From assembly GCA_027577595.1 (NCBI GenBank), contig JANBRJ010000044.1:1-64000 (forward strand): 64,000 nucleotides of DNA, in the 5' to 3' direction. Shown piece by piece: positions 28,914 through 55,742 of this stretch. The stretch comes from Coemansia sp. RSA 487 (lineage: Eukaryota > Kickxellomycota > Kickxellomycetes > Kickxellales > Kickxellaceae). The stretch's first letter is position 1. Each line of letters starts with the position of its first letter. A model generated the notes under the pieces. The model was not told the DNA's origin. It did no database searches and worked only from the letters and a program-made list of their open reading frames with translations. The position numbers were made by a program, and so were the translations under genes.

Positions 28914-29846
28914 TTAATCGATATCGATATCGTTATCATCAAAGCGATATCTTCCAAGAAGGTTGGTGTTTCGAGATAGAACACCAACAATAGAGCCACC
29001 GAATCCATCACCAATATCGTCAATATTGTCATCGGACTCGTAATTATCGTCTGATCCCTCAGAGATTGTGGCAAGGTTATCACGTTCCAACATCAGCTCT
29101 TCAACGTCATCAGTAATAATGTTATCGCAGCCTTGTATTTTGAGATAACTTAGAGATTTACACTTTTCAGCAATCGTTTCAATGCAGCTGTCATCAATAT
29201 CAATGCATCTGGAGAGCTCAAGATACTGCAGGTCTGTAAGGCAACTGCCAATAGCCTTGCACGTAAGAGGACCAGCATTGGTTTCAGACAGATGAAGGTA
29301 TTTAAGCTTTGGAAGCATACGGATGATCGCGCCTATTGTCTGGTCCATAAGCATTACCTCATCCAAGTCGAGATGGGTGAGCTTTTCAGATAGATGTGGG
29401 TTGTCTACAAATAGTTTGAGAAAGTGAGAATCGCCTATATGCTGGCACAAATCAAGGTCAAGACTGGTTATATTCGTGCAGAATGCAAGGACGGGTGCAA
29501 GTTGAACGTATCCTATTTTCTCCCAACGCCCGCCAAGCATCGAGAGATCAAGGTTCCGAACAAGACCTCCATAGTGTGTATGGTTGCCAACTTTGAATAA
29601 AGGCTGGTGCGCAATAGAAGCAGAAAACCGGTTGAAATATTTCATGTGTGTTAACTTTGGACAAGTCCACAGTTGCTCGATCGCATAAATCCACCCCTGC
29701 TTGCACGCAAGGCACAACTGAGCCAAACTACCAGCTGCCATGTACTGTGCAACTCCATCCATTATTAGCGTGTTGTTCCACACCTGAGAAGCTGCAGAGT
29801 TGTGCAGAGTGTTTTCCTTTCGCTTGGCTGTGTATGGTTGAACCAT
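28914..29846 (-). CDS. AMN1-like leucine-rich repeat protein, array copy 1 (intact), 310 aa
   Basis: The ATG at 29846 starts the protein. An N-terminal segment (WNNTLIMDGVAQYM...LAQLCLACKQ) resembles a degenerate F-box. Cysteine-type leucine-rich repeats follow: ITSLDLDLCQHIGDSHFLKL, LTHLDLDEVMLMDQTI, LKYLHLSETN, LQYLELSRCIDIDDSCIE, LSYLKIQGCDNIITDDVE. The tail is very acidic, with many Asp and Ser. The repeats match the LRR_CC/AMN1 class that binds partner proteins in F-box complexes and cell-cycle regulators. It is the only copy of a four-member head-to-tail array without visible damage, so it is probably the functional one. Confidence 0.8.
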   Translation of the reverse strand: MVQPYTAKRKENTLHNSAASQVWNNTLIMDGVAQYMAAGSLAQLCLACKQGWIYAIEQLWTCPKLTHMKYFNRFSASIAHQPLFKVGNHTHYGGLVRNLDLSMLGGRWEKIGYVQLAPVLAFCTNITSLDLDLCQHIGDSHFLKLFVDNPHLSEKLTHLDLDEVMLMDQTIGAIIRMLPKLKYLHLSETNAGPLTCKAIGSCLTDLQYLELSRCIDIDDSCIETIAEKCKSLSYLKIQGCDNIITDDVEELMLERDNLATISEGSDDNYESDDNIDDIGDGFGGSIVGVLSRNTNLLGRYRFDDNDIDID

Positions 29847-30162
29847 TATGTGCTGTTGAAGTTGCAAGATTAAACAAAAAATGAAAATAAAAATAATATA
29901 ATATACACTGAAGGATAAAAAAAAGAGCAGCCAGGTTCTTCAAATGATATATATTACTGGCTACTTGTACTCTTCACGAGGGGCAGCAAAGGTTTTGGGA
30001 GAAATCCAATTACCAAGTGATGAGAGCCCATGCCCAGCCAAGCAGACTCGTGGATTCATGTGGCCTTGTGGATTTACTAAATTGATATTTGAAGTACATT
30101 TTTTGAAATCAAAAATATGTAATAAAAAACTATATAAACCATGCGCCTAAATATGTTATCTT

Positions 30163-31103
30163 TTAGTCAGAGGTGTCCGAGTCAGGAATGTCCGGGTCAG
30201 AGATGTTCGAGCCAGAATAGTCATAGTCATCCATTTTATCCATTCCATCGGTATATTGCACAAGAAACTCTGCATCATCATAAGAAAAACCGCTAAATGG
30301 GTCCACAGTAAGGTCATCATATAACTCGGAATCGTTGTCTGAGCAGTCAGAGACGAGAGGGAAACAGTCATGATCTGCCATCGAGTTTTCAACACCATTG
30401 GTTATAATATCATCACAACCTTCAATCTTGATATAGGATAGCTTCTTACAGCCCTTAGCAAGCATCACAGTACAGTTATCGTCAGTTTTCTGGCAGCTGG
30501 TGAGTTCGAGCGAGGATAGTTTGCTAGTGCCTTTGGCAATGGCCTCACAAGAGGAGCAGCATTAGTATCCAACAATTGAGGAAAATCCAGTTTTGGAAGC
30601 AAGTGGATAGTCTGGCTTATTGTTTTGTCTTTGATCCTAGCTTTGTCCAAATCAAGATGCGTGAGGGTTTCGGACAAATGCGGGCCGTCGTTGGAGAGCT
30701 TGAGGAACCGAGAACTATTTATTTTCTGACACAAGTTGAGGTCAAGGGCCTCTAGATTCGTGCAAGACGTAAGGACAGGGGCAAGTTTGAGGTAGTTTAT
30801 TCTATTCCTATATCTACCAATCTTGGAAAGGTAAGTACTCCTGACAAGGACACAGTAGCGGCTGGTGTTGCCCAATTCAAACAAAAGTTTGCTTGTGGCT
30901 GCAGCGGAAAACTGGATGAACTCGCTCATATTCTTCAAATTAGGATATCTTTGCAAACCCTCGACTTCATAAAGCAAGTCTTGTTTGCAAGAAAGACATA
31001 TTGGCGTGAAACTGTCGTTCTTCATGTGTTTTACCATATGATCCATTATAAGCGTGTTGTATCACAACTGAGAGGCCGCAGTATCTAACGCATTTGTTTG
31101 GGT
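30163..31103 (-). pseudogene. AMN1-like LRR gene, array copy 2, broken
   Basis: The sequence aligns along its length with copy 1, including LTHLDLDKARIKDKTI, LSYIKIEGCDDIITNGVE and an acidic Asp/Ser tail. Two kinds of damage are visible. Where copy 1 reads SQVW before NNTLIMD, this copy has a TGA stop in place of the Trp codon. Further on, in the repeat that follows TNAAPL, the frame shifts, so the front (31046-30465) and back (30468-30163) lie in different frames. A sequencing error could explain one lesion, but hardly both. Confidence 0.8.
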
Positions 31104-31262
31104 CGTCGTGTTGATTATAGTGTTAAGCAGAAAGCTTGGAAATGGGTGGAATATATAATAAAAAGTAAAGTAACTAGCGAGTTTTTATTGTGACTGCAGA
31201 AAATTTGTTCTACCCATTGTGGACACTTTAGATCGTGGAAAGAAATAACCTCATTGGAAATT

Positions 31263-31448
31263 TTACCTTTGGATCAGTTTGAATGAGGAGCCTGAATCTA
31301 GATCTGACGAGGATGAATCCGGCTTGTTTGGGTCGTTGGCGCTCTGATCCGAGATATCTGGATCCGCGTCCAAAATATCTTTGATGAGAGAGCGATAATA
31401 CTGCATGTAGGTACTTCCATCATAAGAGAAACCCTTCATAAGTGGCAA
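31263..31448 (-). pseudogene. Detached acidic tail of LRR array copy 3
   Basis: A 61-codon frame whose GFSYDGSTYMQYY start and Asp/Ser-rich run match the C-terminal tail of copy 2 (GFSYDDAEFLVQY). It follows copy 3 after a gap of about 120 bp and has no LRR of its own. It most likely was the end of copy 3 before the region between was changed. Confidence 0.6.
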
Positions 31449-31529
31449 ATTGGCGGTTTTTTAAATCGTGGCTGTGTCGAAACTCGCTAATCGAGTCATC
31501 GGTTTACAATATGGCGGTTGATATTCCAT

Positions 31530-31558
31530 ATTAGGTCTAAACTTTCGTTAGACCTAAT
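31530..31558. repeat. Perfect 11-bp hairpin
   Basis: Arms ATTAGGTCTAA at 31530-31540 and TTAGACCTAAT at 31548-31558, with a 7-nt loop. It lies in the segment that separates LRR copy 3 from its detached tail, so it may belong to a small insertion there, or it may be a transcription end signal. Confidence 0.75.
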
Positions 31559-31567
31559 GCCCCACAT

Positions 31568-32308
31568 CTACGCCCGCAAAGTGTATTTATCTTCGCTTGA
31601 ATGACCAGTGCAGCTGTGAGCGCTGAGAGATGTTAGCTTTTTACAACAATCCTCCCAAAGATATTTAATGCCCTCGTCATCCATAAACATGCAGTTTGAG
31701 ATGTCGAGTGATCGAAGATCAGGATGGTATTTAGCAATTGTCTCACACGTATAACGGCAAGCATTAGTTTCTGACAGCCTAAGATGCTTAAGCTTTGGAA
31801 GCAGTTTGATAATACCGGAAATTTGGAGGCCATGGATCTTAACCCTACTCATATCGAAATATGTGAGATTTTCGGATAGATGTGGGTTATCCGTGAAGAG
31901 ATCGACAAGTGAATACCAGCTTAGCCTTTGGCACGAGCCAAGGTCAATGCTCTTTATATTCTTACAGGATGCAAAGATCGGGGCAAGCTCGTCATAGCCG
32001 ATTTCATTCTGGCGCCCATTGAGCTTGGATAAATCCAATGATTTGACAACACTAGCATAGCATTTGTGGTTGGTAATTTTAAACAGCGGTTTATCTATCA
32101 TTGAAGCGGAAAACAGGTCGAAGCCATCCATATGTGTAAATTGGGGACACATCCACAGACGTTCGAAGGCGTACAGTCTGCCCTGTTTGCAAGAAATGCA
32201 CATTTGCGCCAGGCTACTACTACTTGACATGCACTGTATAATACCAGCCATAACAAGAGTGGTGTGCCACACCCGAAATCCCGCAATGTTTGGGTTTACT
32301 TGGGACAT
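31568..32308 (-). CDS. AMN1-like LRR protein, array copy 3, shortened, 246 aa
   Basis: Open from an ATG at 32308. It matches copy 1 from the F-box-like start (VWHTTLVMAGIIQCM, LAQMCISCKQGRLYAFERLW) through the repeats (IKSIDLGSCQRLSWYSLVDL, LTYFDMSRVKIHGLQI, LRSLDISNCMFMDDEGI). It ends early, at SCTGHSSEDKYTLRA, before the acidic tail, and a tail-like piece lies downstream at 31448-31263. It may still make a shorter LRR protein, or it may be an early pseudogene. Confidence 0.65.
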   Translation of the reverse strand: MSQVNPNIAGFRVWHTTLVMAGIIQCMSSSSSLAQMCISCKQGRLYAFERLWMCPQFTHMDGFDLFSASMIDKPLFKITNHKCYASVVKSLDLSKLNGRQNEIGYDELAPIFASCKNIKSIDLGSCQRLSWYSLVDLFTDNPHLSENLTYFDMSRVKIHGLQISGIIKLLPKLKHLRLSETNACRYTCETIAKYHPDLRSLDISNCMFMDDEGIKYLWEDCCKKLTSLSAHSCTGHSSEDKYTLRA

Positions 32309-32469
32309 TTTTCTGCTGATAGATTCGATAAAACCAATAGAGCTAAAGACAAGTGATGAACAATTACCATGCGTAACAGTTTTTTATCAGTTGTATTGTG
32401 CCCATAGCGATCACGGTTAAAATTTTGGAACAAACCACTGGACATTGAAAATATAAAGTCGGAGATGAT

Positions 32470-33245
32470 CTAGCCAGAGGTGCCAGCACCAGAGTAACTA
32501 TTCTCATGCATTCCATAGAGGTAGCACTCGCTCATCAAGTAAACTTTTGTCGGCGTGGAAATCGTCGTCAAAGAGCCAACCTCCATATGCATCTTCATAG
32601 TCGCCAAAGAAATAATAACAATAATCGTCTGAGCCGCCAGAAACAACAAGGAAACAGCCATGCTCCTTAATCAGCTCTTTAACACTCTCAGCCACAATAT
32701 AGCGACAGCTTTCAACTTTGATATAGCCTAGCGCTCCACAATCCATGGGTAATATCTCGGATACAGTCGTCGATATCGACACAACACCCAAGTTCGAGTG
32801 GCTGCAGTCCGTGGTGGCATTCGCCAATGGCTTTACACGCAAGAGGGCCATCATCAGTTTCTGATAGAAGAGATTCAAGCTTCAGAAGCACACGTATAAT
32901 CCTACTTATTGTCAAGTCATTGGTCTCTATCTTGTTCATCTCTAGATTGGTGGGATTTTCGGGCAGATGCGGGTTGATTGCAAAGAGCTTGAAAAACTTG
33001 AAGCTCCTTATTCGTTGGCAAAAGTTGAGATTGAGACTAGTCAAGTTTGTGAAGACACAAAGCCACGCGCAAGTTTGCTGTACCATATATTCTTATTACG
33101 CCTGACGAGCTTGGAGAGGCCAAAGCCTTGGGCTAAAGTGCCATAATGGGCGCGGTTCCACAGATATTCGATAGCATATAGCCAGAGCCCTGTTTGCGTG
33201 CAAGGCACATCCGAATGGTATTGTCATGTGTTAGGTATTTAACAT
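32470..33245 (-). pseudogene. AMN1-like LRR gene, array copy 4, heavily decayed
   Basis: Pieces of the family appear in more than one frame: MCLARKQG near 33205, LTSLNLNFCQRIRSFKFFKL near 33030, PLACKAIGECHHGLQPLELG near 32800, and a GYIKVESCRYIVAESVKELI piece with an acidic tail near 32700-32560. A stretch corresponding to about 30 residues near the front is missing, and at least one frameshift separates the repeats from the tail. It is the most decayed copy and the farthest upstream in the array. Confidence 0.75.
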
Positions 33246-33470
33246 ATAGTCTGAAACCAGTGGTTTTTTGTACCTATGAGGAGTGCTTATTTCATATTTC
33301 TGATTCAGTATATTCTCAAATGGGGAGGGGCTTTTTCTGTGATCAAAATTTCGATTTGTAAGCAAAGGGCATGCTTGAAAAAAGCCCAGCTCTGCTCTGA
33401 CTCTTCTTTTTCTCTACTCTTACTTTTTTTTTTATTGTACTATATTGAAAGTAGGGTTCAACAATCAAAA

Positions 33471-34466
33471 ATGACCAAGCCCGCAGAAATGGACCAGCCG
33501 TCGATCCTAAGCGGACCAGAGAGCCAGTTCTGCGTCAAGCTCATTTGCCCGGATTGCCGCAATCCGATTCCGAACATTGTGGAGGACTTCACGTCGGGCG
33601 ACTACGTGTGCGGCGACTGCGGGTTAGTTCTTGGCGACCGAATCATAGACACACGGTCCGAATGGCGTACGTTTGCAAATGAGGACGGTGATGACCCATC
33701 GCGTGTGGGAAACGCAGCAAATCCGTTTTTGGACGGGGCACAGCTAGACACTGTGATTGCGCGCGGTGGAGACAGCGGGTCGGGAATGGCGCGCAACCTC
33801 AACCGCACCCAGGGGCGCACTACGGCACAGCGGAATGAGCGCAACCTGGTGCAAGCGTACAAGGAAATATCAGCGCTGTGTGACGCGTACGATATGCCGC
33901 GATCGATTGTGGATATTGCCAAGCAGCTTTACAAGAAAGTCGAGGACGACAACTTGCTGCGCGGCAAGAGTAACGACGCAATTATAGCGGCGTGCATCTT
34001 TTTGGCGTGCCGGCAGGAGGGCGCGCCGCGCACGTTCAAGGAGATTTGTGCGCTGACCAAAGTCGACCGCAAGGATATTGGGCGGACATTCAAGTTCCTC
34101 AAGAGCAAGCTGGGGACGAATGCGGGCACGACGTCGTCGGATGATCTGATTGCGCGGTTCTGCTCGAACCTGAATCTGGGCCCCGAGACGCGCATCATCA
34201 CACGGCAGCTCACACAAAAGGCAAAGGACATGGAGAACATCTCGGGAAAAAACCCGGTGTCCATCGCCAGCGCATGCATCTACATGGCATCGCACCTTGT
34301 TGGTGACGGGCGCGAGGCAAAGGCCATCTCGGAGATCGCCGGCATTGGCGAGGCGACCATCAAAGCCACATACAAGATCCTGTATGCCAACCGGTACGAC
34401 ATTCTGACGCCCGAGATCCTTGCACGCAGCCCAAAGGCATCAGAGAAGAACCTCATCACACCTTGA
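33471..34466 (+). CDS. SUA7: Transcription factor IIB, canonical copy, 331 aa
   Basis: TFIIB bridges TBP at the promoter and RNA polymerase II and helps to set the start site. The ATG at 33471 gives a normal N-terminus; the frame upstream is not TFIIB-like. The zinc ribbon has cysteines at 26, 29, 47 and 50 (CX2CX17CX2C). It is followed by GLVLGDRIIDTRSEWRTF, the conserved B-reader/linker start. Two cyclin-like repeats follow: YKEISALCDAYDMPRSI...ACIFLACRQEGAPRTFKEI, and NISGKNPVSIASACIYMASH...IGEATIKATYKIL. Length fits the family. It has no introns. Two further TFIIB-like genes lie at 39778-40740 and 41015-42064. This one has every conserved element and is the likely general factor. Confidence 0.96.
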   Translation: MTKPAEMDQPSILSGPESQFCVKLICPDCRNPIPNIVEDFTSGDYVCGDCGLVLGDRIIDTRSEWRTFANEDGDDPSRVGNAANPFLDGAQLDTVIARGGDSGSGMARNLNRTQGRTTAQRNERNLVQAYKEISALCDAYDMPRSIVDIAKQLYKKVEDDNLLRGKSNDAIIAACIFLACRQEGAPRTFKEICALTKVDRKDIGRTFKFLKSKLGTNAGTTSSDDLIARFCSNLNLGPETRIITRQLTQKAKDMENISGKNPVSIASACIYMASHLVGDGREAKAISEIAGIGEATIKATYKILYANRYDILTPEILARSPKASEKNLITP

Positions 34467-35294: not shown

Positions 35295-35711
35295 AGCTCT
35301 TTGTTTTTTTTTAGTAATTTTCATTTGAGAAATGCACAAAAGGAAACAATGAACACCACCGCATGTCAAGTGCGATGACTTTGGGACTCGACATATGCCT
35401 TTATATCCACGAGAGACACGACATCCCAATGGGGCTCTGTTTGCAAACCGGATGGAGCCAACAACGCAACACAACGCAGCACAGGCGTGGTTGCTGCTGT
35501 GCAATAGTCCGCCTGTGTCGATGCTAGCACAGATGCGGCGTCTTTTTTTGTTTTGGTTTCAATACTTTTCCAACAAAAAAGATCAGCATTTCGTCTCTCA
35601 TTTTTTGCGACGAAATAAAAATGAAAAATGGAGGACCTGGGTATCGATCCCAGTACTTTTCGCATGCGAAGCGAACACTCTACCACTTGAGTTAGACCCC
35701 CGTTTTCACTG
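35295..35711 (-). repeat. tRNA-containing repeat, copy A of an inverted pair
   Basis: About 417 bp, almost identical in reverse orientation to 39214-39629. By eye I count three base changes and one length change in an A run. The repeat includes about 10 bp before a tRNA-like sequence, the tRNA-like sequence itself, and about 330 bp after it that does not resemble a gene. Its left end touches the PIS1 stop. It could be a segmental duplication or a tRNA-headed short interspersed element. Confidence 0.9.
35629..35701 (-). tRNA. tRNA-Ala(CGC)-like gene, copy A
   Basis: A 73-nt cloverleaf: acceptor GGGGGTC with GTCCTCC plus discriminator A, D stem ACTC/GAGT, anticodon stem TTCGC/GCGAA with loop TTCGCAT (anticodon CGC, alanine), and T stem CTGGG/CCCAG. 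A T run follows at once, as a Pol III stop would. Oddities are a T-T mismatch in the acceptor, A instead of G at the start of the D stem, and a T loop ATCGATA in place of the usual TTCGANY. It may be functional or a tRNA-derived sequence. Confidence 0.65.
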
Positions 35712-36071
35712 TCGTCTTTGCACGTAGAACTTGAACTTAACTTACTAGCTTGAACTTACCAGCACGGCGGCTACTCGAGGCTCAGCCCCACCACAGCGCA
35801 TACGCAGGTCCCGTTGATCCTGATTTAACGCAAGCCATAGAGAGCCGAGGCGCCAGGAGTCTACACCAGTCACCTTGGTTCGATATTCAAGGCAAGCACG
35901 CAGGGGGACTTAGGCAGTGTGTTTCCCTTCACTATCTCTGGACATTTCATCTAAATTATGCAATTCCTGTTTCGTTTTATTATTCGTAAATGTAGGATAG
36001 TCACGATCTCAGAGCTGGCTTGTTGGTGGAGGTTCACCATATCGGAAAGCAACGACGTAGGGCAATAAAAT

Positions 36072-38998: not shown

Positions 38999-39213
38999 CG
39001 ATGTTTCTTGTAATCTATTTTCTAGTCAACATTAAACGTTTGAAAGTGATCTAATAAATAATAAGCTGCTATTTTTCTACTTGGCTATCAGGTTGATTAG
39101 CTTGTTTGGAACATGAATAGCCCTGATAGTGCTTTTTGCAAACCGCTTTGCAGAAAGCAATCACTAAACGTACGGAAAAAGCTGATAAGTTGAAATCTCA
39201 CATGAAAAAATGG

Positions 39214-39629
39214 CAGTGAAAACGGGGGTCTAACTCAAGTGGTAGAGTGTTCGCTTCGCATGCGAAAAGTACTGGGATCGATACCCAGGTCCTCCATTTT
39301 TCATTTTTATTTCGTCGCAAAAAATGAGAGACGAAATGCTGATCTTTTTTGTTGGAAAAGTATTGAAACCAAAACAAAAAAAGACGCCGCATCTGTGCTA
39401 GCATCGACACAGGCGGACTATTGCACAGCAGCAACCACGCCTGTGCTGCGTTGTGCTGCGTTGTTGGCTCCATCCGGTTTGCAAACAGAGCCCCATTGGA
39501 ATGTCGTGTCTCTCGTGGATATAGAGGCATATGTCGAGTCCCAAAGTCATCGCACTTGACATGCGGTGGTGTTCATTGTTTCCTTTTGTGCATTTCTCAA
39601 ATGAAAATTACTAAAAAAAACAAAGAGCT
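39214..39629 (+). repeat. tRNA-containing repeat, copy B of an inverted pair
   Basis: The reverse-orientation twin of 35295-35711, more than 99% identical by eye. The pair flanks a 3.5-kb stretch with the CLPTM1L-like gene and two gene relics. The right end lies 148 bp from the stop of the second TFIIB-like gene. Confidence 0.9.
39224..39296 (+). tRNA. tRNA-Ala(CGC)-like gene, copy B
   Basis: The same 73-nt cloverleaf as copy A, without a base difference that I can see, with anticodon CGC and an immediate T-run stop. A-box TAACTCAAGTGG and B-box GGATCGATACC both depart slightly from consensus. Alanine identity rests on the anticodon and on a general match to TGC/CGC alanine tRNAs. Confidence 0.65.
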
Positions 39630-39777: not shown

Positions 39778-40740
39778 TTATTGCGGCCTTAGGCTGTTCT
39801 CGGCCGCCTGAGGACAACGCGAGAGAATCTCTGGAGTTAGAATCGTCTTTCTATTTTCGTAGAGGATGCGATGCGTGGATTTTATAGTAGACTCGCTGAT
39901 TCCTGTGACAGTGGATATGCTCTCTGCGTTACAGTCCTTTCCAAAAAGCTGAGAGACAAAATATATGCAAGCTCCGGCAATGGTGATTGGGTTTTTTCCA
40001 GAGATGTTATCCAGGTCCTTTGCCTTTTGCGACAACATCCTTACAACAATGCTAACCGAGTTGTCAAGATCCAGCCTGGAGCTGAAGCGCATAATAAGGT
40101 CCTCGGACGACGTGACCGTTGTACGTGTGCCGGCAATATGCCGAAGCAGAGTAAACACTTTTCTAACATCCTTGCGATTCACCCCAGTTAGTGAACAGAT
40201 TTCCTTGTATGTGCGCGGAACACCTTCCTGTCGACAGGCGCTGAATATACAAGCAGTTATTAGCACATTTGCCTTCCTGCCCTTTTGTGAGAAGTATTCA
40301 CTTTCGACCTTTTGGTACAAATGTTTTGAAGCATCAGCGATTGACCTGGGCATTTCACACATGTCGCAAAAGGCAGAGATGTCCTTGTATGCTTGTCCAA
40401 GCGTCTGGTTGCCCTTTGTAGGAGCACCCGTGCGTGCCTGTGTGCGGTGGAGGCCCCGTGAATTGCCTAACCCCTTATCGCCACCAATTACGGTATCCAG
40501 TTGGTCGCCGTCAAGAAACGGATTGGCAGCATCGCCCACACGCGACTGGTCTGGTCCGTCGCTGTCTTGGAATGTGCGCCATTCGGATCTTGTGTCCACT
40601 ATGCGGTCGCCTAGAACTAGCCCACAGTCGCCACACACATAGTCGCCCGATGTGAAATCCTCAACAAGGTTTGGAACCAGACTGCGACAATCCTTGCAAA
40701 TTAATTTTACAGAAAACTGGTCATCATAATTGTCAGTCAT
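39778..40740 (-). CDS. TFIIB-like paralogue 2, 320 aa
   Basis: Start ATG at 40740 (MTDNYDDQF) gives a TFIIB-like N-terminus; an in-frame ATG at 40860 would add a hydrophobic leader and seems less likely. The zinc ribbon is complete (Cys 15, 18, 36, 39), and GLVLGDRIVDTRSEWRTF is nearly identical to the canonical copy. The two cyclin repeats are recognisable but diverged: FSACRQEGVPRTYKEI, SGKNPITIAGACIYFVSQLFG, ISESTIKSTHRILYEN. Similarity to copy 1 is highest in ribbon and reader, lower in the core, which would alter contacts with TBP and DNA more than those with polymerase. The frame is fully open, so it is probably expressed. It lies in opposite orientation to copy 1. Confidence 0.9.
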   Translation of the reverse strand: MTDNYDDQFSVKLICKDCRSLVPNLVEDFTSGDYVCGDCGLVLGDRIVDTRSEWRTFQDSDGPDQSRVGDAANPFLDGDQLDTVIGGDKGLGNSRGLHRTQARTGAPTKGNQTLGQAYKDISAFCDMCEMPRSIADASKHLYQKVESEYFSQKGRKANVLITACIFSACRQEGVPRTYKEICSLTGVNRKDVRKVFTLLRHIAGTRTTVTSSEDLIMRFSSRLDLDNSVSIVVRMLSQKAKDLDNISGKNPITIAGACIYFVSQLFGKDCNAESISTVTGISESTIKSTHRILYENRKTILTPEILSRCPQAAENSLRPQ

Positions 40741-41014
40741 GTTTATAAAGTATACGGGAAATATTACTAGCAATAAAGCAGCGGCAAAATAAAGCGAAAG
40801 GGGCGAGAAATAAAAGAGAACCCTTGCCTTTTGATATAAAATACTTGCCTTTCTGTACATCAGACATTGCTTATATACGGATACATGGACAAAGAAGTTT
40901 TCTAAAAAGACACGAAAAAAGAAATGTTGGCTGTTCGTTTAAAGAAAAGCGCTATCTGATTGATTACAAAGGGCTATTAGTGTTTTTGTACAATGGAAAA
41001 ATAAGAAAGTAGAC

Positions 41015-42064
41015 CTACACAAGTGGAAGCAAAGCAGTTGATATGTGGGGATTCGACTCCAGCATCTTTTGCGTGACAAGCAGATCGCGGGAAACAAACA
41101 GCAGCTTGTATGAGCTCTTTATTGTTCCCTCACTGATTCCAGCAACGTGGGAGATGACTCCGGCATCCCTCGGCTGCCCCACCAGATGCGACGCCATATA
41201 GATACAAGCGCCAGCCACCGATACCGGGCTCTTTCCAGCAAGCGTGTCGTGCTGCTTGACGGCGTCGTTGAGAATTGACGCGCATTGCTGCGCAGGCGCC
41301 CCAAGCGAAAGCGTCGAGCAGAAACGGGCCAGCAGATCGTCCGACAGCATAGTGCCCACATCTTCGCCAAGCCTGTCCTTCAGCAGCTTGAACATGCGGC
41401 TAATCTCCTTGCGTGGCACATGCGTCAACGCACAGATCTCCTTGAACGTGCGCGGCACCGCCTGCTGCCTACACGCAAGGAATATGCATGTGGCCACGAT
41501 TGCGTCAATGTTTTTGCCGCGGTGCAAGTCCTCCTCGGCAACTCGCCGGTACATTTTGCGCGCCGCCTCGCCAATGCTTGACGGCACGTCCATGTTTGCG
41601 CACATCAGGGTGATTCCGCTGTATGCTCGCTCCAGACCGCGCTCCCGCCGCTTTGCTACCTCACGGCTGGCCTTTCTGCCGCCCGATCTGCTCCGTTGCG
41701 CCCGCGACAGCACTGCATCCTTGCTGCTGTTGCTGTTCGAGTCGCTGTCTTCTTGGCTGCTTTGACTGCTGCTCCCGCCGGCCATCGACAGCAAGGTTGC
41801 CGCTACTGCAGGCACTAAAGGATTCTCATTCTCGTTCTGCTTTAGCTGCTCGGAATGCCTAATGCTTGTTGTATGTGACTTGCTGTATGAAGACAAAAGT
41901 CGGTCACCAATGGCTGAATTGCAGTCGGTGCATACTATATCGCCACGCTTGAAATCGTGAACAAGGCCAGAGTCGTCTGAAAGACAATTGGGACACATTA
42001 CAGTAAACCCTCTCGATAGCGTTGTCGTATTTGTCGCTGTTGCTGATACCATAGCTACCGCCAT
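41015..42064 (-). CDS. TFIIB-like paralogue 3 with altered reader region, 349 aa
   Basis: The zinc ribbon is kept (CPNC at 24-27 and CTDC at 45-48, CX2CX17CX2C) and so are both cyclin repeats (ATCIFLACRQQAVPRTFKEI, SGKSPVSVAGACIYMASHLVG, ISEGTIKSSYKLL). The block TRSEWRTF and the loop after it, which form the B-reader/linker in TFIIB, are gone; in its place stand SSYSKSHTT and a 60-residue Ser/Asn/Gln-rich stretch followed by basic residues. It is not Brf1 (no C-terminal Brf1 homology) and the core resembles the TFIIB copies here. It is a diverged TFIIB, perhaps for special promoters or acting as a competitor of the normal factor. It lies 274 bp upstream of copy 2 in the same direction. Confidence 0.85.
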   Translation of the reverse strand: MAVAMVSATATNTTTLSRGFTVMCPNCLSDDSGLVHDFKRGDIVCTDCNSAIGDRLLSSYSKSHTTSIRHSEQLKQNENENPLVPAVAATLLSMAGGSSSQSSQEDSDSNSNSSKDAVLSRAQRSRSGGRKASREVAKRRERGLERAYSGITLMCANMDVPSSIGEAARKMYRRVAEEDLHRGKNIDAIVATCIFLACRQQAVPRTFKEICALTHVPRKEISRMFKLLKDRLGEDVGTMLSDDLLARFCSTLSLGAPAQQCASILNDAVKQHDTLAGKSPVSVAGACIYMASHLVGQPRDAGVISHVAGISEGTIKSSYKLLFVSRDLLVTQKMLESNPHISTALLPLV

Positions 42065-45508: not shown

Positions 45509-46129
45509 ATGCGCTTCTCCGCTCTTGCTACAGTCCTTGGCCTTGTCTCGTGCGTTGCTGCTGCCCCTTACTATGGTGGCGATGTGACCCAGGTTATTGG
45601 TGTTCCTCCGATTGTCGCTCCTCCTGTTGTTGGTGGTGGTGCCTACCCTGGCAGCGGTGCCACTTATCCGGGTGGTGGTAGCAATGGATCCGGCAACAAC
45701 GGTGCTGGTAACAATGGCTCAGGCAACAACGGCAACGGTTCCGGTAACAACGGAAATGGCTCGGGTGGCAACGGCTCTAACGGGAATGGCTCCGGCGGTA
45801 GCGGCAGTGGCCCTTCGGGCGGCCAGGTTGGCAAGCCTGCCGACTGCGGTCTTTCTCCTGGCCAGACCGCCGCTCTGACCCCCCTTGTCAACGAGCTCCA
45901 GCTTACCAGGACCGTTGATGACCTCAAGCACCTTACCAAGCAAATCACAGACCTTCTTGCTGATACTCTCCAGGAGAGTGCTGTTTCTTCGATCCTCAAC
46001 ATCGTTGACAATGTCGTTGCTGGTCTCGGCCTGGGCGGTCTTGACCTCAAGCCCACTGTTGACAGCGTTACCAGCATTCTTCGGAAGCAGGTTCCTTGCG
46101 TCCTCGATACTCTTCTTCCTAAGCCATAA
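45509..46129 (+). CDS. Secreted Gly/Asn/Ser-rich protein, family member B, 206 aa
   Basis: The signal peptide (MRFSALATVLGLVSCVAAAP) is followed by a valine/proline-rich stretch and a linker of GSGNNGNGSGNNG type. The family module begins CGLSPGQTAALTPL, includes AGLGLGGLDLKPTVDSV and ends PCVLDTLLPKP. It shares GLGLGGLDxKPxVD with member A at 17.7 kb and so forms a pair with it, whereas members C and D form the other pair. The Asn-Gly-Ser linker has possible N-glycosylation sites (NGS). The gene is uninterrupted and the first of three tandem copies on the plus strand. Confidence 0.88.
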   Translation: MRFSALATVLGLVSCVAAAPYYGGDVTQVIGVPPIVAPPVVGGGAYPGSGATYPGGGSNGSGNNGAGNNGSGNNGNGSGNNGNGSGGNGSNGNGSGGSGSGPSGGQVGKPADCGLSPGQTAALTPLVNELQLTRTVDDLKHLTKQITDLLADTLQESAVSSILNIVDNVVAGLGLGGLDLKPTVDSVTSILRKQVPCVLDTLLPKP

Positions 46130-47709
46130 GGCTATAATCGTTATTTCTCTTTTTGGAACATAGTGCATTTCATTTCAGTTTTATGTTGAATGTCCGCCTT
46201 GATGGTGAATGTATCACTACAAAAAATACAAGAAGAAAGGGATGGCCACTGTGAACATGTATTAGTAGATAAAAGCGTGCGTATTTTGGGTCAAGTGGGA
46301 AGAAGCGGCGATGGTGTGCTGGCTAGAGAACCAGTGGGGTATAGTTCAACGCAAGCAATGGTATTTTATATTGATTTCTATTTCAGCAGCTCCTAATAGG
46401 CCAAGTAAAAAAGAAACCAAAACTCTTGAGGAAGCACCGTCGATTTTTGAAACAGATTGCGTTGTGGATATGGCTTAAAGCGGCTACACATGGGTGAAAC
46501 CACATAAATTTGGCTCTTTTTTTGGAATTTATGTGACTTCATAAAGTAAAATTGTAGGATATAACGTGTTTCGTTTTTCAAACAAATCTTCAGTTGCTTC
46601 TATATTTTAACATATTCTCTTATAATTTAATCGGTATGTTATGCTGTCAGTAAATCTGATTTGTCTGCTGGCTCTTTACTGGGATCAGTATTTTGTGGCG
46701 CTGATGTTTCAACAAATGTTGTTCGATTTTTGCGTGCAATAGAAATCAAAACGGTCCAAAGCCACTGGGGCTAAACAATCCCATTTTTATAATTCAAAGT
46801 ACGTGTTGACATTGGTGGCTGAAGATATAAATGTTTTTCTTTCCCTTGACAAATAGGCAAAGACATTTAAATTTTATAAGGAACAATGCCGACTGCTTTC
46901 GGTCCAAGGCTTGTTGTTGGATAAAAATAATTATATATTAGCAAAGTACCCAAACAAACTTTCCATTTAATGGCAAGCTGTCAAGTAATTCAATGACATT
47001 TTGGTGTCCTTTTTGTGTCTTTGTTAATTATTCGCATATTGTATAATTTTTAAAACAGGAAGCTGCATCGCACGTATAGCTGCACAGAAAAAAGCCTTTA
47101 TTTTTATTTTCGCAATTTATCTCCACTATGTTTTCAGGCAGGTTCTTCGGCTTGTTTTTACGACATGGCCAACCATGTGTTTTGTTAATGGCCGGCATAA
47201 TTTTGCAGGATGCTAGTTGGGTGTTGAATTCGTTTGTTTCTCTAGAAATAACAATGTAATTGAGTGTCTTTGTTTAAACTAAAAATGAAGAAAAGGAGGG
47301 AGGGACATGCTAGCCGTTTTCGGTAGCAATACAATGAAGAAACTCGAACGACAACGCTGAAAACAAAGCTGGCTTCCATATTGAGACGCTTTACAAAAAC
47401 GTCAACATTACAGCCAAGTTGCTTACAGTTCAAGCTAACGGTATAACCTGTTCACACAGCTTATTGCAACCAGGTTGCCAACTGAGTAAAAAAACCAAGT
47501 GTTATCTATATAAACGTAGTAATTTTCCTGGTACCGTTTTAACTCGAGGTTTTTAAAAAACATCATACAAGGTATTCCCGTTAAAACTTCATCCTCTTCG
47601 TCTGGTTACTCTTTCTCCTACCTCCTAATATTTTCCTCAAACCTCGCGTATAATTCCTCCAGCCCCTTCTTTTCCCCCTTTAAACCTTGTCGTTGGTTCC
47701 TCATTGAAA
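46130..47709. other. Long AT-rich intergenic region
   Basis: About 1.6 kb between two tandem secreted-protein genes. I found no protein-like frame, RNA gene or clear repeat. A TATA box for the next gene is at 47507. Confidence 0.6.
47507..47514 (+). promoter_or_regulatory. TATA box of secreted protein gene C
   Basis: TATATAAA about 200 bp upstream of the ATG at 47710, followed by a C/T-rich leader like that of gene B. Confidence 0.5.
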
Positions 47710-48378
47710 ATGCGCTTCTCTTCGTCCATCGCTACCTTTGCTCTTGCTGCCGCAGCTGCCGCCTCTCCTCTCGCTATCCGTGACGAATACAAAGCCGTTG
47801 GAGAGCACCCGATTGGATACCCCGCTGGTCCCGGCGGTCCCGGCGGTCCCGGATTCCCTGGTGGCCCTGGCGGCCCTGGCTTCCCTGGTGGTCCAGGAGG
47901 ACCTGGCTTCCCTGGTGGTCCAGGAGGACCTGGCTTCCCGGGTGGTCCAGGAGGACCCGGCTTCCCCGGCGGCCCTGGTTTTCCAGGAGGTCCCGGAGGA
48001 CCAGGCGGCCCTAGTGGTCCAGGAGGACCTGGTTTCCCGGGAGGGCCTGGTGGCCCCGGCGGCCCTGGCGGTTCTGGCAACGCTTGCGGTGTCTCTTCCG
48101 ATCAGATCTCGGCACTTACGCCTCTTCTCAGCAAACTCGGTCTTGCAACCACAATCGACGGCGTCAAGCAGCTTGTCGACCATGTTGTCTACGGAGTCGG
48201 AGGCCTTCTCGAGGGTCCTGCAGTCAACGGCAACGGTGGTCTTATTGATCTGGTCAACAACCTTGTCAAGGGTCTTCTTGGCGAGCCTTTGGATCTCCAC
48301 AACACCGTCGATGCGCTTACCAGCATCCTCGACAACCAAGTGCCTTGCCTTCTCGATACCCTTCTGCCCTATCCATAA
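47710..48378 (+). CDS. Secreted collagen-like protein, family member C, 222 aa
   Basis: The ATG at 47710 starts a signal peptide ([19 protein letters not shown]). From about residue 38 to 121 there is a tract with glycine at every third position (GGP, GFP, GSG triplets), the pattern of collagen-like sequence. The family module follows: [14 protein letters not shown], then [30 protein letters not shown], and [11 protein letters not shown]. It is the close sister of member D, with which it shares [13 protein letters not shown]. Two cysteines bracket the module as in all members. Secretion to the wall or outside is likely. No enzyme motif is visible. Confidence 0.88.
47818..48076 (+). repeat. 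Collagen-like Gly-X-Pro coding repeat
   Basis: Tandem 27-bp-like units that encode GFPGGPGGP, with silent third-base variation between units. The protein register of glycine every third residue is kept through the whole tract. Confidence 0.85.
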
Positions 48379-49688: not shown

Positions 49689-50399
49689 ATGCGCTTCTCA
49701 TCCTCGATCATCGCTTTTGGCCTGGCTTCTTTTGCCGCTGCCTCGCCCGTTGTTTACCGTCGTGGTAACTTTATCATCGAAGATGGATATCCATTCGGTT
49801 CTGGCCATGGAGGTCCTCCCGGCCTTCCTGGTGGTGGTCTTCCTGGAGGTGGTCTTCCTGGAGGTGGTCTGCCTGGAGGCGGCCTTCCCGGCGGTGGCCT
49901 TCCTGGTGGTGGTGCTCCCGGCGGTGGTGCTCCCGGCGGTGGTGCTCCCGGCGGTGGTGCTCCCGGCGGCGGTGCCCCTGGTGGCGGTGCCCCTGGTGGT
50001 GGTGCTCCTGGCGGCGGTAGTGGCGGTGCCCCAGGAGGCGGTAGTGGCGGTGCCCCAGGAGGCGGAAGCGGCGGTAGTGGAGGCAGTGGTAGCGGTACCA
50101 ATGCCTGTGGCGTCACACCCGGCCAGATCTCGGCGCTCACTCCTCTTCTCGACAAGCTCGGTCTCTCGACCACCGTTGATGGAGTCAAGAAGCTCGTCAA
50201 GAACATTCTCAGCGGCGTCGACGGCCTTCTTGCTGGCCCTGCAGTCAATGGCAGCGGCGGTCTCATTGACACGGTCAACAACCTGGTCAAGGGCCTTTTG
50301 GGCGAGCCTCTCGATCTTCACAACACCGTAACCGCACTTGTGAGCATCCTTCAGAACCAGGTTCCTTGCCTTTTGGATACTGCGCTTCCCAAGCCATAA
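49689..50399 (+). CDS. Secreted elastin-like protein, family member D, 236 aa
   Basis: The signal peptide (MRFSSSIIAFGLASFAAAS) is followed by a short charged stretch and a tract of pentads, GGGLP repeated five or six times and then GGGAP repeated about nine times, which recalls elastin-like Gly-Pro pentads. The family module follows: [55 protein letters not shown]. Module similarity to member C is very high, while the linkers are unrelated. The final motif reads DTALP rather than DTLLP. Confidence 0.88.
   Translation: MRFSSSIIAFGLASFAAASPVVYRRGNFIIEDGYPFGSGHGGPPGLPGGGLPGGGLPGGGLPGGGLPGGGLPGGGAPGGGAPGGGAPGGGAPGGGAPGGGAPGGGAPGGGSGGAPGGGSGGAPGGGSGGSGGSGSGTNACGVTPGQISALTPLLDKLGLSTTVDGVKKLVKNILSGVDGLLAGPAVNGSGGLIDTVNNLVKGLLGEPLDLHNTVTALVSILQNQVPCLLDTALPKP
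49819..50084 (+). repeat. Elastin-like Gly-Gly-Gly-Leu/Ala-Pro coding repeat
   Basis: Tandem 15-bp units encode GGGLP and then GGGAP, ending in GGGSGGAP blocks. Unit number is likely to vary between strains. Confidence 0.85.
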
Positions 50400-50472
50400 A
50401 CCTTTTTTTGCTTGCGTTTACCTACACTAGCAATAGAGCTTAGCTCTTCCAATCCCCTTGTTTACCAATATT

Positions 50473-50661
50473 ATGCCAATTTTTGACATTATATATAACC
50501 TCATGTATTTCTGGGAGTGCAATGGTTTGTCAGTGATGAGACAAGTCAAAATTATACACACTTACATTTTCCAGATTATTTTCATTTTGCAGAAAAAGAG
50601 CAAAAGTAGTGCGAGCACTGATACCAAAGGAATGATTATATTAGATGCAAATGTGAGATGA
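50473..50661 (+). pseudogene. Possible decayed micro zinc-finger unit
   Basis: A frame starts MPIFDIIYNLMYFWECNG and continues with a histidine near the expected place, which resembles the start of the micro zinc-finger genes further on (MPSIDIVYEYCQEC). The first cysteine and last histidine are absent, and the frame runs on past the normal stop. Similarity is weak, so this is a tentative relic. Confidence 0.3.
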
Positions 50662-50894
50662 CTATCAAAATAAGCACAAGTAAAATGTAATTGGCATGTC
50701 TGATATAATCAGTATCTTATAAATGTGATACGTGGTATTGGCCAAGTTTTCTAGTTCACATTTATAATAGGCTATTGTGGTAAGTAAGGAAGCAACATGT
50801 ATCTTGACAATGCTAAGACAGCTGCCATTCCAATCAACTCCAATGAATCGCATTATGTGTTTGATATGAAACATGATCCATATAGACTCATCAG

Positions 50895-50902
50895 TATAAA
50901 TA
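50895..50902 (+). promoter_or_regulatory. TATA box of micro zinc-finger unit 1
   Basis: TATAAATA 140 bp upstream of the ATG at 51035. The sequence before it (GAAACATG ... CAGTATAAATA) is also found before the TATA box at 52215. Confidence 0.6.
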
Positions 50903-51034
50903 GTTGCGTGCTGCTGTGCTAGCATACGTCCCATTTGTGCTTATTTTCAACGACGTACTCTTTATTAATTTTGTCGGTCGGATACGGCAATCAAATCGTA
51001 ATCTTCATCCATACTGTCTTCATAAGTGGACAAA

Positions 51035-51136
51035 ATGCCAAGCATTGATATTGTATATGAATATTGTCAAGAATGTAGCCGCTTTGTCCCACAGAACGCC
51101 TATGCATACCATATAATACTCTTTCACGGTGGGTAA
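51035..51136 (+). CDS. Micro zinc-finger protein, unit 1, 33 aa
   Basis: A 33-residue protein, MPSIDIVYEYCQECSRF... ending in HGG. Cysteines are at 11 and 14 and histidines at 26 and 31 (CX2CX11HX4H), with Tyr23 and Gly32. The same positions are occupied in units 2 and 3 and mostly in unit 4. It has its own TATA box. The spacing is close to a C2H2 finger but one residue shorter between the cysteines and histidines than usual. It is too short for standard gene finders. The function is unknown; a zinc-bound peptide that pairs with protein or nucleic acid is possible. Confidence 0.6.
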   Translation: MPSIDIVYEYCQECSRFVPQNAYAYHIILFHGG

Positions 51137-51811
51137 CTGTAGCATATTCGCTTCTGTGGCTAAACCATTTAAATCCCATTCGGCTTAAAATAAGCACTTG
51201 GTTAGCGCTCTTTTCACTAAAGCCTTCTAAATAAAATAAGTCTATACTTTAAACTATATTCTTTCACTATAAATATGTCACTTTTACAAAATATGTATTA
51301 TAGTATGAATGATTTATTCTCAAAAGAGAATAAACAGAGAGAGCAGCATCTGTGGACGCTGCCAATCTCGCCCTATTAACCCCCCATTTATAATGTGATC
51401 AAAACTAACTAATCGTATCTTAATCCTTTATCCAAACAACGCTACGTCACACTCGGGGAATGAGCAAGAAATATGGTATATGCTTCTATCTATGTGATCA
51501 GTTCCGTTATTAGTCAACTCTGCACATATTGTCGCATCCACATTCCATATGGCGGTATACAGTGCGCATATGCAGTACTATCATGGTGGAACAGAATGTG
51601 CTTGAAATAAACCTTCAACCACGGGATTTGATTAACAATATTAAAAAAGTAAGATTACCTTTTCACATTAGTAGCTGGAAATGATAGATAATATCGTACT
51701 TGATAATCTCACGCATATAAGTTGGGTATCGCAGAAAATGATGGATAATGTGCACTCTGTTTGGGAAATAACAGCTCAATAGCAGACAATCAGCGGATAC
51801 AGGCCTACTGG
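51137..51811. other. Spacer in micro zinc-finger array, perhaps with a decayed unit
   Basis: About 675 bp. A TATAAATA lies at 51269, and a 45-codon frame at 51473 contains a CTYC pair but lacks the histidines. The part from 51670 on matches the upstream block of unit 4 at 52535 (TGGAAATGATAGATA versus TGGAATTGATAGACG). Confidence 0.4.
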
Positions 51812-51819
51812 TATAAATA
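51812..51819 (+). promoter_or_regulatory. TATA box of micro zinc-finger unit 2
   Basis: TATAAATA 121 bp upstream of the ATG at 51933, in the same relative place as in the other units. Confidence 0.6.
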
Positions 51820-51932
51820 GTGGGACATAGGTAGTTTGCCATGGGCCAAGACACACACTCTTATTACCTTGTCAATTTAATATAACAATCCAAGCGTAAT
51901 TTTCAATCACCTTGCATTTATCTTTATACGAA

Positions 51933-52133
51933 ATGCCAAAAGTCGATAGTCGATATAAATACTGCTCAGAGTGTAACCTCTTTTTTATGAGACCAGACTA
52001 TAAATTGCATATGCAATTCATACACGGAAAAAGGTTTAGTAGATTCGCTTTTCTTACATCAAGAATTAGAAATGATAGACATAACAGGCCATACATTATC
52101 AACCGCTTGGGAGAAAACGAGAATGATAGATAG
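51933..52133 (+). CDS. Micro zinc-finger protein, unit 2, extended form, 66 aa
   Basis: It starts MPKVDSRYKYCSEC and has Cys11, Cys14, His26 and His31 with HGKR after the last histidine. The other units stop one to three residues after this point, but here the frame continues to residue 66 with a basic, Arg/Asn-rich tail (SRIRNDRHNR). The DNA of this tail aligns with the non-coding upstream block of other units (AGAAATGATAGACATA), so the extension probably arose by loss of the stop. The leader contains ATAACAATCCAAGCG, also found before unit 3. Confidence 0.65.
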   Translation: MPKVDSRYKYCSECNLFFMRPDYKLHMQFIHGKRFSRFAFLTSRIRNDRHNRPYIINRLGENENDR

Positions 52134-52214
52134 TATGGTTATGTTTGGTTCGCCCCCAAACCAACATATCCTGCTGGGTGTTTAATGAGAAACATGCAGC
52201 TTTGAACCCACCAG

Positions 52215-52222
52215 TATAAATA
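52215..52222 (+). promoter_or_regulatory. TATA box of micro zinc-finger unit 3
   Basis: TATAAATA 127 bp upstream of the ATG at 52342. Confidence 0.6.
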
Positions 52223-52341
52223 AGGGGTGTATTGGTAGATGCCACCAAGCGAGCTATTTATCCTATCCAATTTTTCGACTTGAAATAACAATCCAAGCGC
52301 AGTCTAATAATCATACCGTTTCTGGACCTTTTCTCCACCCA

Positions 52342-52449
52342 ATGCCAGCTGTCGAATGTCCACTTACGTACTGTCCATGGTGTGACATCGTCTTCAAAAA
52401 CGCGGATTATTGGGCTCATGTTGAAGTCGATCATGGAATTAGAACATAG
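52342..52449 (+). CDS. Micro zinc-finger protein, unit 3, 35 aa
   Basis: It starts MPAVECPLTYCPWC and has Cys11, Cys14, Tyr23, His26, His31 and Gly32, in exact register with units 1 and 2. It ends with GIRT. The first half otherwise differs strongly from units 1 and 2, so the metal-ligand positions appear to be under selection while other residues drift. An extra cysteine is at residue 6. Confidence 0.6.
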   Translation: MPAVECPLTYCPWCDIVFKNADYWAHVEVDHGIRT

Positions 52450-52698
52450 AATCTACTTTGCACGGGTAGCACCAGTTTTCATTATAGGATTTGAATTGTA
52501 TAATAATCAGTGTTGCGTTGGCCATGTTTACATTGATAGTTGGAATTGATAGACGCTTTGCGCTTGGTAATATCAACCACATGAGCTGGATATCGTAAAG
52601 AATGAGAAAATGTCAGATGGGTTGCTCTTATTTAACCAGCAAAGATAACCAAACGGACTGCGCGTGCAATGAGTAGCAGCCAGCTTCCAGATTTTGGG

Positions 52699-52706
52699 TA
52701 TAAACA
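52699..52706 (+). promoter_or_regulatory. TATA-like box of micro zinc-finger unit 4
   Basis: TATAAACA 133 bp upstream of the ATG at 52832. It departs from the TATAAATA of the other units at one base. Confidence 0.5.
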
Positions 52707-52831
52707 ATCGTAGGCTGGTAGTCACTATCTGCACTAGCAGACCATATACTCTATTCATCTTGCTATTCCAATCTACCAGCCGACAAAGAAGCTGTAGCCA
52801 CCAAACGTTTTTTTTTTAGCTCAAGCAAGGA

Positions 52832-52936
52832 ATGCCCAAGTCCGCTATCTCATACAAATGCTGTGCAGAGGGTGGCTTGCACTTTTTGGAGCCGCTCTAC
52901 AGCGTCCACAGGAATTCAATTCATGGAAGGAAATGA
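52832..52936 (+). CDS. Micro zinc-finger-like protein, unit 4, 34 aa, one ligand lost
   Basis: It starts MPKSAISYKCCAEG and has Cys11, Tyr23, His26, His31 and GRK after the last histidine, like unit 2 (HGKR). Position 14, a cysteine in units 1-3, is glycine here, though Cys10 might take its place. It may be a decaying or altered member. Confidence 0.5.
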   Translation: MPKSAISYKCCAEGGLHFLEPLYSVHRNSIHGRK

Positions 52937-53073
52937 GCATCGTGCACTAACATATACAGTCTTTTGGTTACTACGATAAGCATATTTTCCACATCACACT
53001 TACTAAACAAACGTATCTAATATTTGAAATAGCTGAATTAAACTAGGCAAAGGGCCTTTTCACTTTTTTTTTT

Positions 53074-55742
<2,669 letters not shown>

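Follow-up and report, generated by a model that had tools for sequence, protein, structure and literature searches.

Within the 64,000-nucleotide stretch of Coemansia sp. RSA 487 DNA that was analyzed in full (the window), four short open reading frames occupy consecutive positions on the plus strand, each preceded by a TATA or TATA-like box and, in part, by sequence blocks that recur from one unit to the next (Table 1). The frames encode proteins of 33, 66, 35 and 34 residues, as the original prediction had proposed for DNA that otherwise appears empty, and all four are present and open. They can be aligned without gaps across 32 residues, seven of which are invariant in every unit (M1, P2, C11, Y23, H26, H31 and G32). 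An eighth position, C14, is retained in three of the four units and is Gly in unit 4, where the codon reads GGT rather than the TGT of units 1-3. This alignment agrees with the claimed arrangement of an MP start, Cys11, Cys14 (except in unit 4), Tyr23, His26, His31 and Gly32. Three units satisfy the order C-x2-C ... H-x3..5-H that typifies the proposed zinc ligands, with the second Cys missing in unit 4, which is possibly decaying.

Table 1. Positions of the four units, their upstream elements and the degraded copy in the window
Feature	Position	Strand	Remarks
TATA box, unit 1 (TATAAATA)	50895-50902	+	Begins 140 bp before ATG
Unit 1 micro-ORF	51035-51136	+	33 aa, stop included in coordinates; predicted C2H2 finger, all 4 ligands
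Degraded fifth unit (pseudogene remnant)	51519-51592	+	Recovered by nhmmer (E 3.4e-4) using a DNA profile of units 1-4 only
D1 block, 29 nt	51660-51688	+	152 bp before unit 2 TATA box
TATA box, unit 2 (TATAAATA)	51812-51819	+	Begins 121 bp before ATG
D2 leader block	51869-51896	+	Unit 2, between box and ATG; 82% identical to 52272-52299
Unit 2 micro-ORF	51933-52133	+	66 aa, stop included in coordinates; all 4 ligands plus basic C-terminal extension
D1 copy	52051-52079	+	164 bp before unit 3 box; also inside unit 2 frame
TATA box, unit 3 (TATAAATA)	52215-52222	+	Begins 127 bp before ATG
D2 copy	52272-52299	+	Unit 3, between box and ATG
Unit 3 micro-ORF	52342-52449	+	35 aa, stop included in coordinates; predicted C2H2 finger, all 4 ligands
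D1 copy	52525-52553	+	174 bp before unit 4 box
TATA-like box, unit 4 (TATAAACA)	52699-52706	+	Begins 133 bp before ATG
Unit 4 micro-ORF	52832-52936	+	34 aa, stop included in coordinates; Gly14, 3 of 4 ligands

The nearest neighbor downstream is a convergent CTP synthase frame on the minus strand (53074-54930). Among full-length chains, 591 of its 618 residues match one group at 731-770 bits, which we take to be eukaryotic, and another at no more than 519 bits, which is presumably bacterial or archaeal. Other genes in the window include those for TFIIB, a coronin-like WD40 protein, BING4 and an ABC1-kinase. Together with the CTP synthase scores, these genes give the window a eukaryotic and, by impression, probably fungal appearance. 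Three diverged TFIIB paralogs are located within 9 kb of one another (33276-34466 on the plus strand, 39781-40860 and 41018-42064 on the minus strand), each carrying a zinc ribbon and two TFIIB repeats, and to our knowledge such a local expansion of this basal transcription factor is unusual. Two segments in opposite orientation, 35366-35727 and 39198-39559, are near-identical by eye, and each contains a tRNA-Ala (CGC) gene. Four proteins appear by eye to be secreted (17720-18484 on the minus strand; 45509-46129, 47704-48378 and 49689-50399 on the plus strand), and their middle parts, all of low complexity, differ from one another, whereas their C-terminal regions are alike (ALTPL ... LLPKP-like). 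None of these four has a Pfam match up to E 0.001, and three of their genes share a strand and are situated shortly before the array. The minus-strand region 28914-33086 comprises a run of frames that are mutually similar by eye, some of them shortened; the frame at 28914-29867 has sub-threshold LRR matches in Pfam and that at 30468-31046 has no LRR match there.

The arrangement of cysteines and histidines in the four frames is not readily produced by chance. When all six frames of the 64 kb were searched for the full pattern MP-x8-C-x2-C-x11-H-x4-HG, three matches were recovered, all of them within the array, and the same pattern was absent from all 3000 dinucleotide shuffles of positions 50400-53073. 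The bare ligand pattern, C-x2-C-x11-H-x4-H, matches four places in the window, three of which belong to the array, and it arose 10 times over the 3000 shuffles, with a maximum of one occurrence per shuffle. On these counts, a chance origin of the ligand pattern was rejected, in keeping with the contention that equal residue numbering in four frames would be hard to obtain by chance.

The basis for the shared numbering emerges when the DNA surrounding the frames is compared. Mean pairwise identity among the units is 0.49 in the DNA preceding the TATA box, 0.51 between the box and the ATG and 0.52 within the frame, versus 0.27 for random sequence, and convergence of unrelated frames was therefore rejected because homology spans the whole units. 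The ligands do occur at equal residue numbers, but the frames are not unrelated; because whole units are homologous, the equal numbering is no puzzle, and the ligands are instead what selection has kept. The frames differ from one another at 38-53 of 96 nucleotides, and start-to-start distances between units 1 and 2, 2 and 3, and 3 and 4 are 898, 409 and 490 bp, respectively. Tandem Repeats Finder does not detect the array, because the copies are too unlike.

The long 898-bp interval contains a remnant of a fifth unit, which the original prediction had overlooked and which a protein profile of the family matches weakly (E 0.014). Its Cys-x2-Cys and His-x4-His-Gly parts are found in different reading frames, and it is without an ATG. 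No further copies were found in the 64 kb with either the protein profile or the DNA profile. In addition, the frame of unit 2 passes the position at which its sisters stop and enters the D1 block upstream of the next unit, which is homologous to the upstream block of other units. Birth and death are accordingly visible in the array, with one unit wrecked, one (unit 4) having lost C14, and one (unit 2) extended.

Each unit had been claimed to carry a TATA box 121-140 bp upstream of its frame, and the measured distances of 140, 121, 127 and 133 bp correspond to this range exactly. A pattern derived from the four boxes, GTATAAAYARNNG, matches exactly at four places in the 64 kb, all of them the boxes themselves; with one mismatch allowed, five matches are found versus 2.7 expected, and this relaxed form is not rarer than chance. 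An extra copy of TATAAATA at 51268, in the interval from unit 1 to the decayed copy, was considered as a box for the latter. Its distance from the finger remnant is about 250 bp, and it was not assigned to any frame. The further claim that noncoding blocks are common to the units is borne out by the D1 and D2 copies, by the DNA profile and by the alignment. A pattern taken from the end of D1 occurs with at most three mismatches at six places in 64 kb, versus 1.9 expected, and the best three of these are in the array. We consider D1 to be a candidate upstream element.

The leaders between box and frame have a further property in common. Counting from 30 bp past the first base of the box, no ATG precedes that of the frame in any of the four units (401 positions, in which 7 to 9.6 would be expected). 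The +30 limit was chosen after ATGs had been noticed at +29 in unit 2 and at +24 in unit 3, and since it was set post hoc, the leaders can be regarded as ATG-free only if transcripts begin beyond +30 from the box. Transcripts usually start further than approximately 30 bp from a TATA box. Boxes and leaders do not represent independent evidence from unit to unit, because the units share descent.

An indication that the frames encode proteins comes from the distribution of substitutions within their codons. At the first and second positions of the ligand codons, one of eight sites is variable, and this single exception is the C14 loss in unit 4; at the corresponding positions of the other 26 codons between residues 3 and 32, 45 of 52 sites are variable (Fisher P 6e-5). 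Third positions, by contrast, vary alike in both sets (3/4 of the ligand codons versus 23/26 of the others), which indicates that the ligand codons have mutated as much as their neighbors while the residue was kept. A similar picture is obtained for the seven invariant codons, where none of 14 first and second sites is variable and, with the ATG excluded, all six third sites are. One finding that had been named as speaking against the array was that ligand positions change as fast as the others, and the rates observed here are far from equal.

The same frames were compared with a neutral simulation, in which the unit 2 frame was evolved at matching divergence under four settings, with 20000 runs for each. 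Seven invariant columns or more arose in 5e-5 to 2.5e-4 of the runs, all copies remained stop-free in 0.002-0.003, and retention of at least 15 of the 16 ligands was observed in 0 of 20000 runs under each of the four settings. No indels have entered the 32 codons of the four units, versus 30 gap columns of 150 in the alignment from TATA box to ATG and 63 of 182 further upstream. Of the six reading frames, frame 0 alone is free of stops in all four units. The numbers of stops in units 1-4 are 1, 1, 0 and 0 in the +1 frame and 3, 4, 2 and 0 in the +2 frame, such that the +1 frame is open as well in units 3 and 4, and the +2 frame in unit 4.

Estimates of omega are less decisive, as would be anticipated if few residues are constrained. 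A test for dN/dS below 1 had been proposed, and the values obtained among the units over 31 codons are 0.61 under the GY model (2 delta lnL 2.1, not significant) and 0.50 under the MG model (2 delta lnL 4.1), but a global ratio below 1 is only weakly supported, since just a few codons are under selection. When columns 1, 2, 11, 14, 23, 26, 31 and 32 are removed, omega becomes 1.39 or 0.92, neither of which is distinguishable from 1. Both the column tests and the box test are partly circular, because the ligand columns were noticed for their conservation and the box pattern was taken from the boxes themselves. This circularity is limited, because the conserved columns are the chemical ligands of a finger and the variable C14 was included among them. 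Taken as they stand, the codon patterns argue that purifying selection acts on the scaffold columns of an encoded protein. The remaining, non-scaffold surface appears to be free to change or is perhaps diversifying.

Structure prediction is consistent with the arrangement of these columns. AlphaFold2, given an alignment of four rows consisting of the units themselves, was applied to units 3 and 2. For unit 3, the model contains strands at residues 8-11 and 16-19 and a helix at 20-30, with a mean pLDDT of 86.6. A similar finger is modeled for unit 2, with residues 11-30 at pLDDT 86-88 and a low-confidence tail that brings the mean to 65. These two units are therefore predicted to adopt the beta-hairpin plus helix (beta-beta-alpha) fold of a classical finger, subject to the shallow alignment on which the models were built. 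In a Foldseek search of the PDB, the best ten rows are all C2H2 fingers, including 9qf5, although no match reaches E ≤0.001 and the best E value is 0.19.

Matches in family databases remain below the thresholds of the models. In Pfam, unit 3 matches zf-Di19 (PF05605) at E 0.0034 with 18.0 bits versus a cut-off of 27.5, and zf-C2H2 (PF00096) at E 0.014 with 16.2 bits versus a gathering cut-off of 25.2. Unit 1 matches Sgf11 (PF08209) at E 0.0065 with 16.4 bits versus a gathering cut-off of 26.4. Other sub-threshold Pfam matches are to Rua1_C and zf-C2H2_4 for unit 3 and to DRAT for unit 1; none is listed for units 2 and 4, the latter searched without its Met1. In NCBIfam, all four proteins remain unmatched even at E 10. 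When a profile was run against PDB sequences, 18 chains were returned up to E 10, most of which are C2H2 fingers.

Taken together, the homologous units, the independently recovered fifth copy, their common upstream layout, the open and indel-free frames, the behavior of the ligand codons and the predicted fold lead us to conclude that the locus is probably a real array of selected single-finger C2H2 microprotein genes, which supports the central assertion of the original prediction. The array would have originated from one ancestral mini-gene unit that was repeatedly duplicated in tandem. Each unit would possess its own TATA promoter, a short leader and a frame for a protein of 33-35 residues (once 66), and the protein would consist of one C2H2-type zinc finger (C-x2-C-x11-H-x4-H-G). 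Thereafter, the array would have been subject to birth and death. If this scheme is correct, the frames are likely to be transcribed without introns and translated, and their proteins are likely to bind zinc.

Other origins for the locus can be envisioned, the most plausible of which is that the units worked as finger genes until a short time ago and that the cluster is now dying, so that the conservation we observe is the memory of past selection. The wrecked unit, the missing C14 and the overrun of unit 2 would all be expected of such a relic, as would the omega of 0.9-1.4 at non-scaffold columns. Nevertheless, all four frames are open and three have every ligand despite the 38-53 differences per 96 nucleotides, and all four units keep both a box and a leader that is ATG-free beyond +30, making this account unlikely. 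A noncoding tandem repeat whose frames are open by accident, be it a satellite, a regulatory array or a noncoding RNA, would explain why the flanks are as similar as the frames (0.49-0.51 versus 0.52), since duplication alone accounts for shared sequence, and would sit well with a whole-frame omega weakly below 1. Such a repeat would not be expected to generate the codon-position pattern at the ligands, the lack of indels or the restriction of openness in all four units to frame 0, and both the neutral simulation and the predicted fold disagree with it. Moreover, a search of positions 50400-53074 against Rfam up to E 1 gave no matches, and we judge a noncoding repeat to be very improbable.

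Each frame might alternatively serve as a 5′ exon that is spliced to others to encode a longer zinc-finger protein. Unit 1 terminates in GGTGGGTAACT, which can be read as a weak donor, and branch-site-like CT[AG]A[CT] sequences are found at two places past unit 4. However, the donor GT[AG][AT]G[TC] is present in none of the four units between the ATG and 150 bp past the stop, and the branch-like motif occurs in only one unit. Space for downstream exons is also scarce, with just 82 bp between the stop of unit 2 and the box of unit 3 and with the CTP synthase frame that converges on unit 4 ending 137 bp from it, and units 1, 3 and 4 encounter stops after 33, 35 and 34 residues. There is accordingly little to recommend a first-exon origin, which we hold to be highly unlikely. 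Finally, the fingers could derive from a larger multi-finger gene or a mobile element, having been excised, amplified and kept only by hitchhiking. C2H2-like fingers are common in transposases, and this lends a mobile source some initial appeal. Eight inverted pairs of 16-21 nt can be identified, but none is positioned alike around the units, the sole extra copy in 64 kb is the decayed one inside the array, and the units share a single orientation. An origin of this kind is scarcely credible.

For an array of selected finger genes, the sequences of the putative helices offer some guidance with regard to function. At helix positions -1, 2, 3 and 6, which usually read DNA bases (numbered by setting H26 to +7), units 1-4 carry P N A Y, M P D L, K A D A and L P L V, respectively. 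Whole-protein net charges are -2, +7, -3 and +3, such that two of the four are acidic. These residues and charges do not look suited to base reading, which favors protein binding by a single finger. Judging from these sequence features, the proteins are more likely to bind other proteins than to read DNA. Their exposed surface could vary freely from copy to copy, allowing them, for instance, to compete with larger partners or to dock onto them. It is conceivable, and we propose it tentatively, that the units form a lineage-specific family in which selection keeps the scaffold (start, ligands, Tyr23 and Gly32), the rest is free or diversifying, and the array acts as a source of novel binding surfaces built on a minimal zinc fold of 33 residues.

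If expressed, the units would constitute very small complete zinc-finger genes, each with a single finger and its own promoter, organized as a tandem family. Gene finders commonly apply length cut-offs above the size of such short frames, and similar arrays may for this reason be absent from annotations. The juxtaposition of a frozen metal scaffold with a free surface would also provide a testable model for the birth, diversification and death of microproteins. Among the titles and abstract openings listed in literature searches on this theme, no such array is named, and in a word search of PMC8778642 the term 'zinc finger' appears once, in the title of a reference. A search for relatives in viral contigs by means of unit 2 produced 25 stretches with the pattern, none of which was confirmed. 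A degenerate DNA pattern located three loci in these contigs (L001, L002 and L003), and in L002 a stop codon follows 37 residues, whereas the other two run on. The family profile gives a weak match to L003 (E 0.0096, in the pattern frame, which is 187 residues long) and, up to E 10, leaves the pattern frames of L001 and L002 unmatched. We regard all three as unrelated, which leaves no relative in the viral contigs scanned.

Several known systems share features with the array. The C2H2 consensus (Kruppel-type, PF00096) has an aromatic residue three positions before the first His and usually 12 residues between the second Cys and the first His. The units resemble it in their Cys2-His2 ligands, in the aromatic residue at the equivalent position and in the beta-beta-alpha model, but their spacing is 11 rather than the usual 12 (which is also the spacing of the aligned chain in 9qf4), they have one finger only, and they score below the cut-off. 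Di19 fingers have a similar ligand spacing, and zf-Di19 (PF05605) is the best Pfam match of unit 3, with residues 10-32 aligned to profile positions 4-26 of 54; this match is nonetheless below the cut-off, spans less than half of the model and involves one unit of four. Small ribosome proteins are a further point of comparison. Chains Bk of 9qf4/9qf5, Bk of 9sra and Bo of 6skg, which are among the best sequence and fold matches, are 47-65 aa in length with one aligned C2H2 stretch, and those of 9qf4 and 9sra end this stretch in HG, as the array units do. 9qf5 is archaeal by its title, and we take 9qf4, 9sra and 6skg to be archaeal ribosome structures as well. Small archaeal ribosome proteins of this type appear among the PDB profile matches at E 0.005-0.019, values that are no proof of kinship to the units, and 9qf4 and 9sra differ in having the 12-residue spacing.

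Tandem clusters of animal C2H2 genes consist of poly-finger genes, whereas in the array the whole gene amounts to one finger; in the animal genes, the ligands are kept and the base-reading positions change. These clusters are reported to have expanded through tandem duplication (PMC2443715, PMC2604467), as the units here appear to have done. The mini zinc finger (MIF) microproteins of plants are likewise short zinc-finger proteins, reported to be plant-specific derivatives of ZF-homeodomain proteins that are without the homeodomain of their relatives (PMC13087070). Their likeness to the single-finger units is a functional analogy only.
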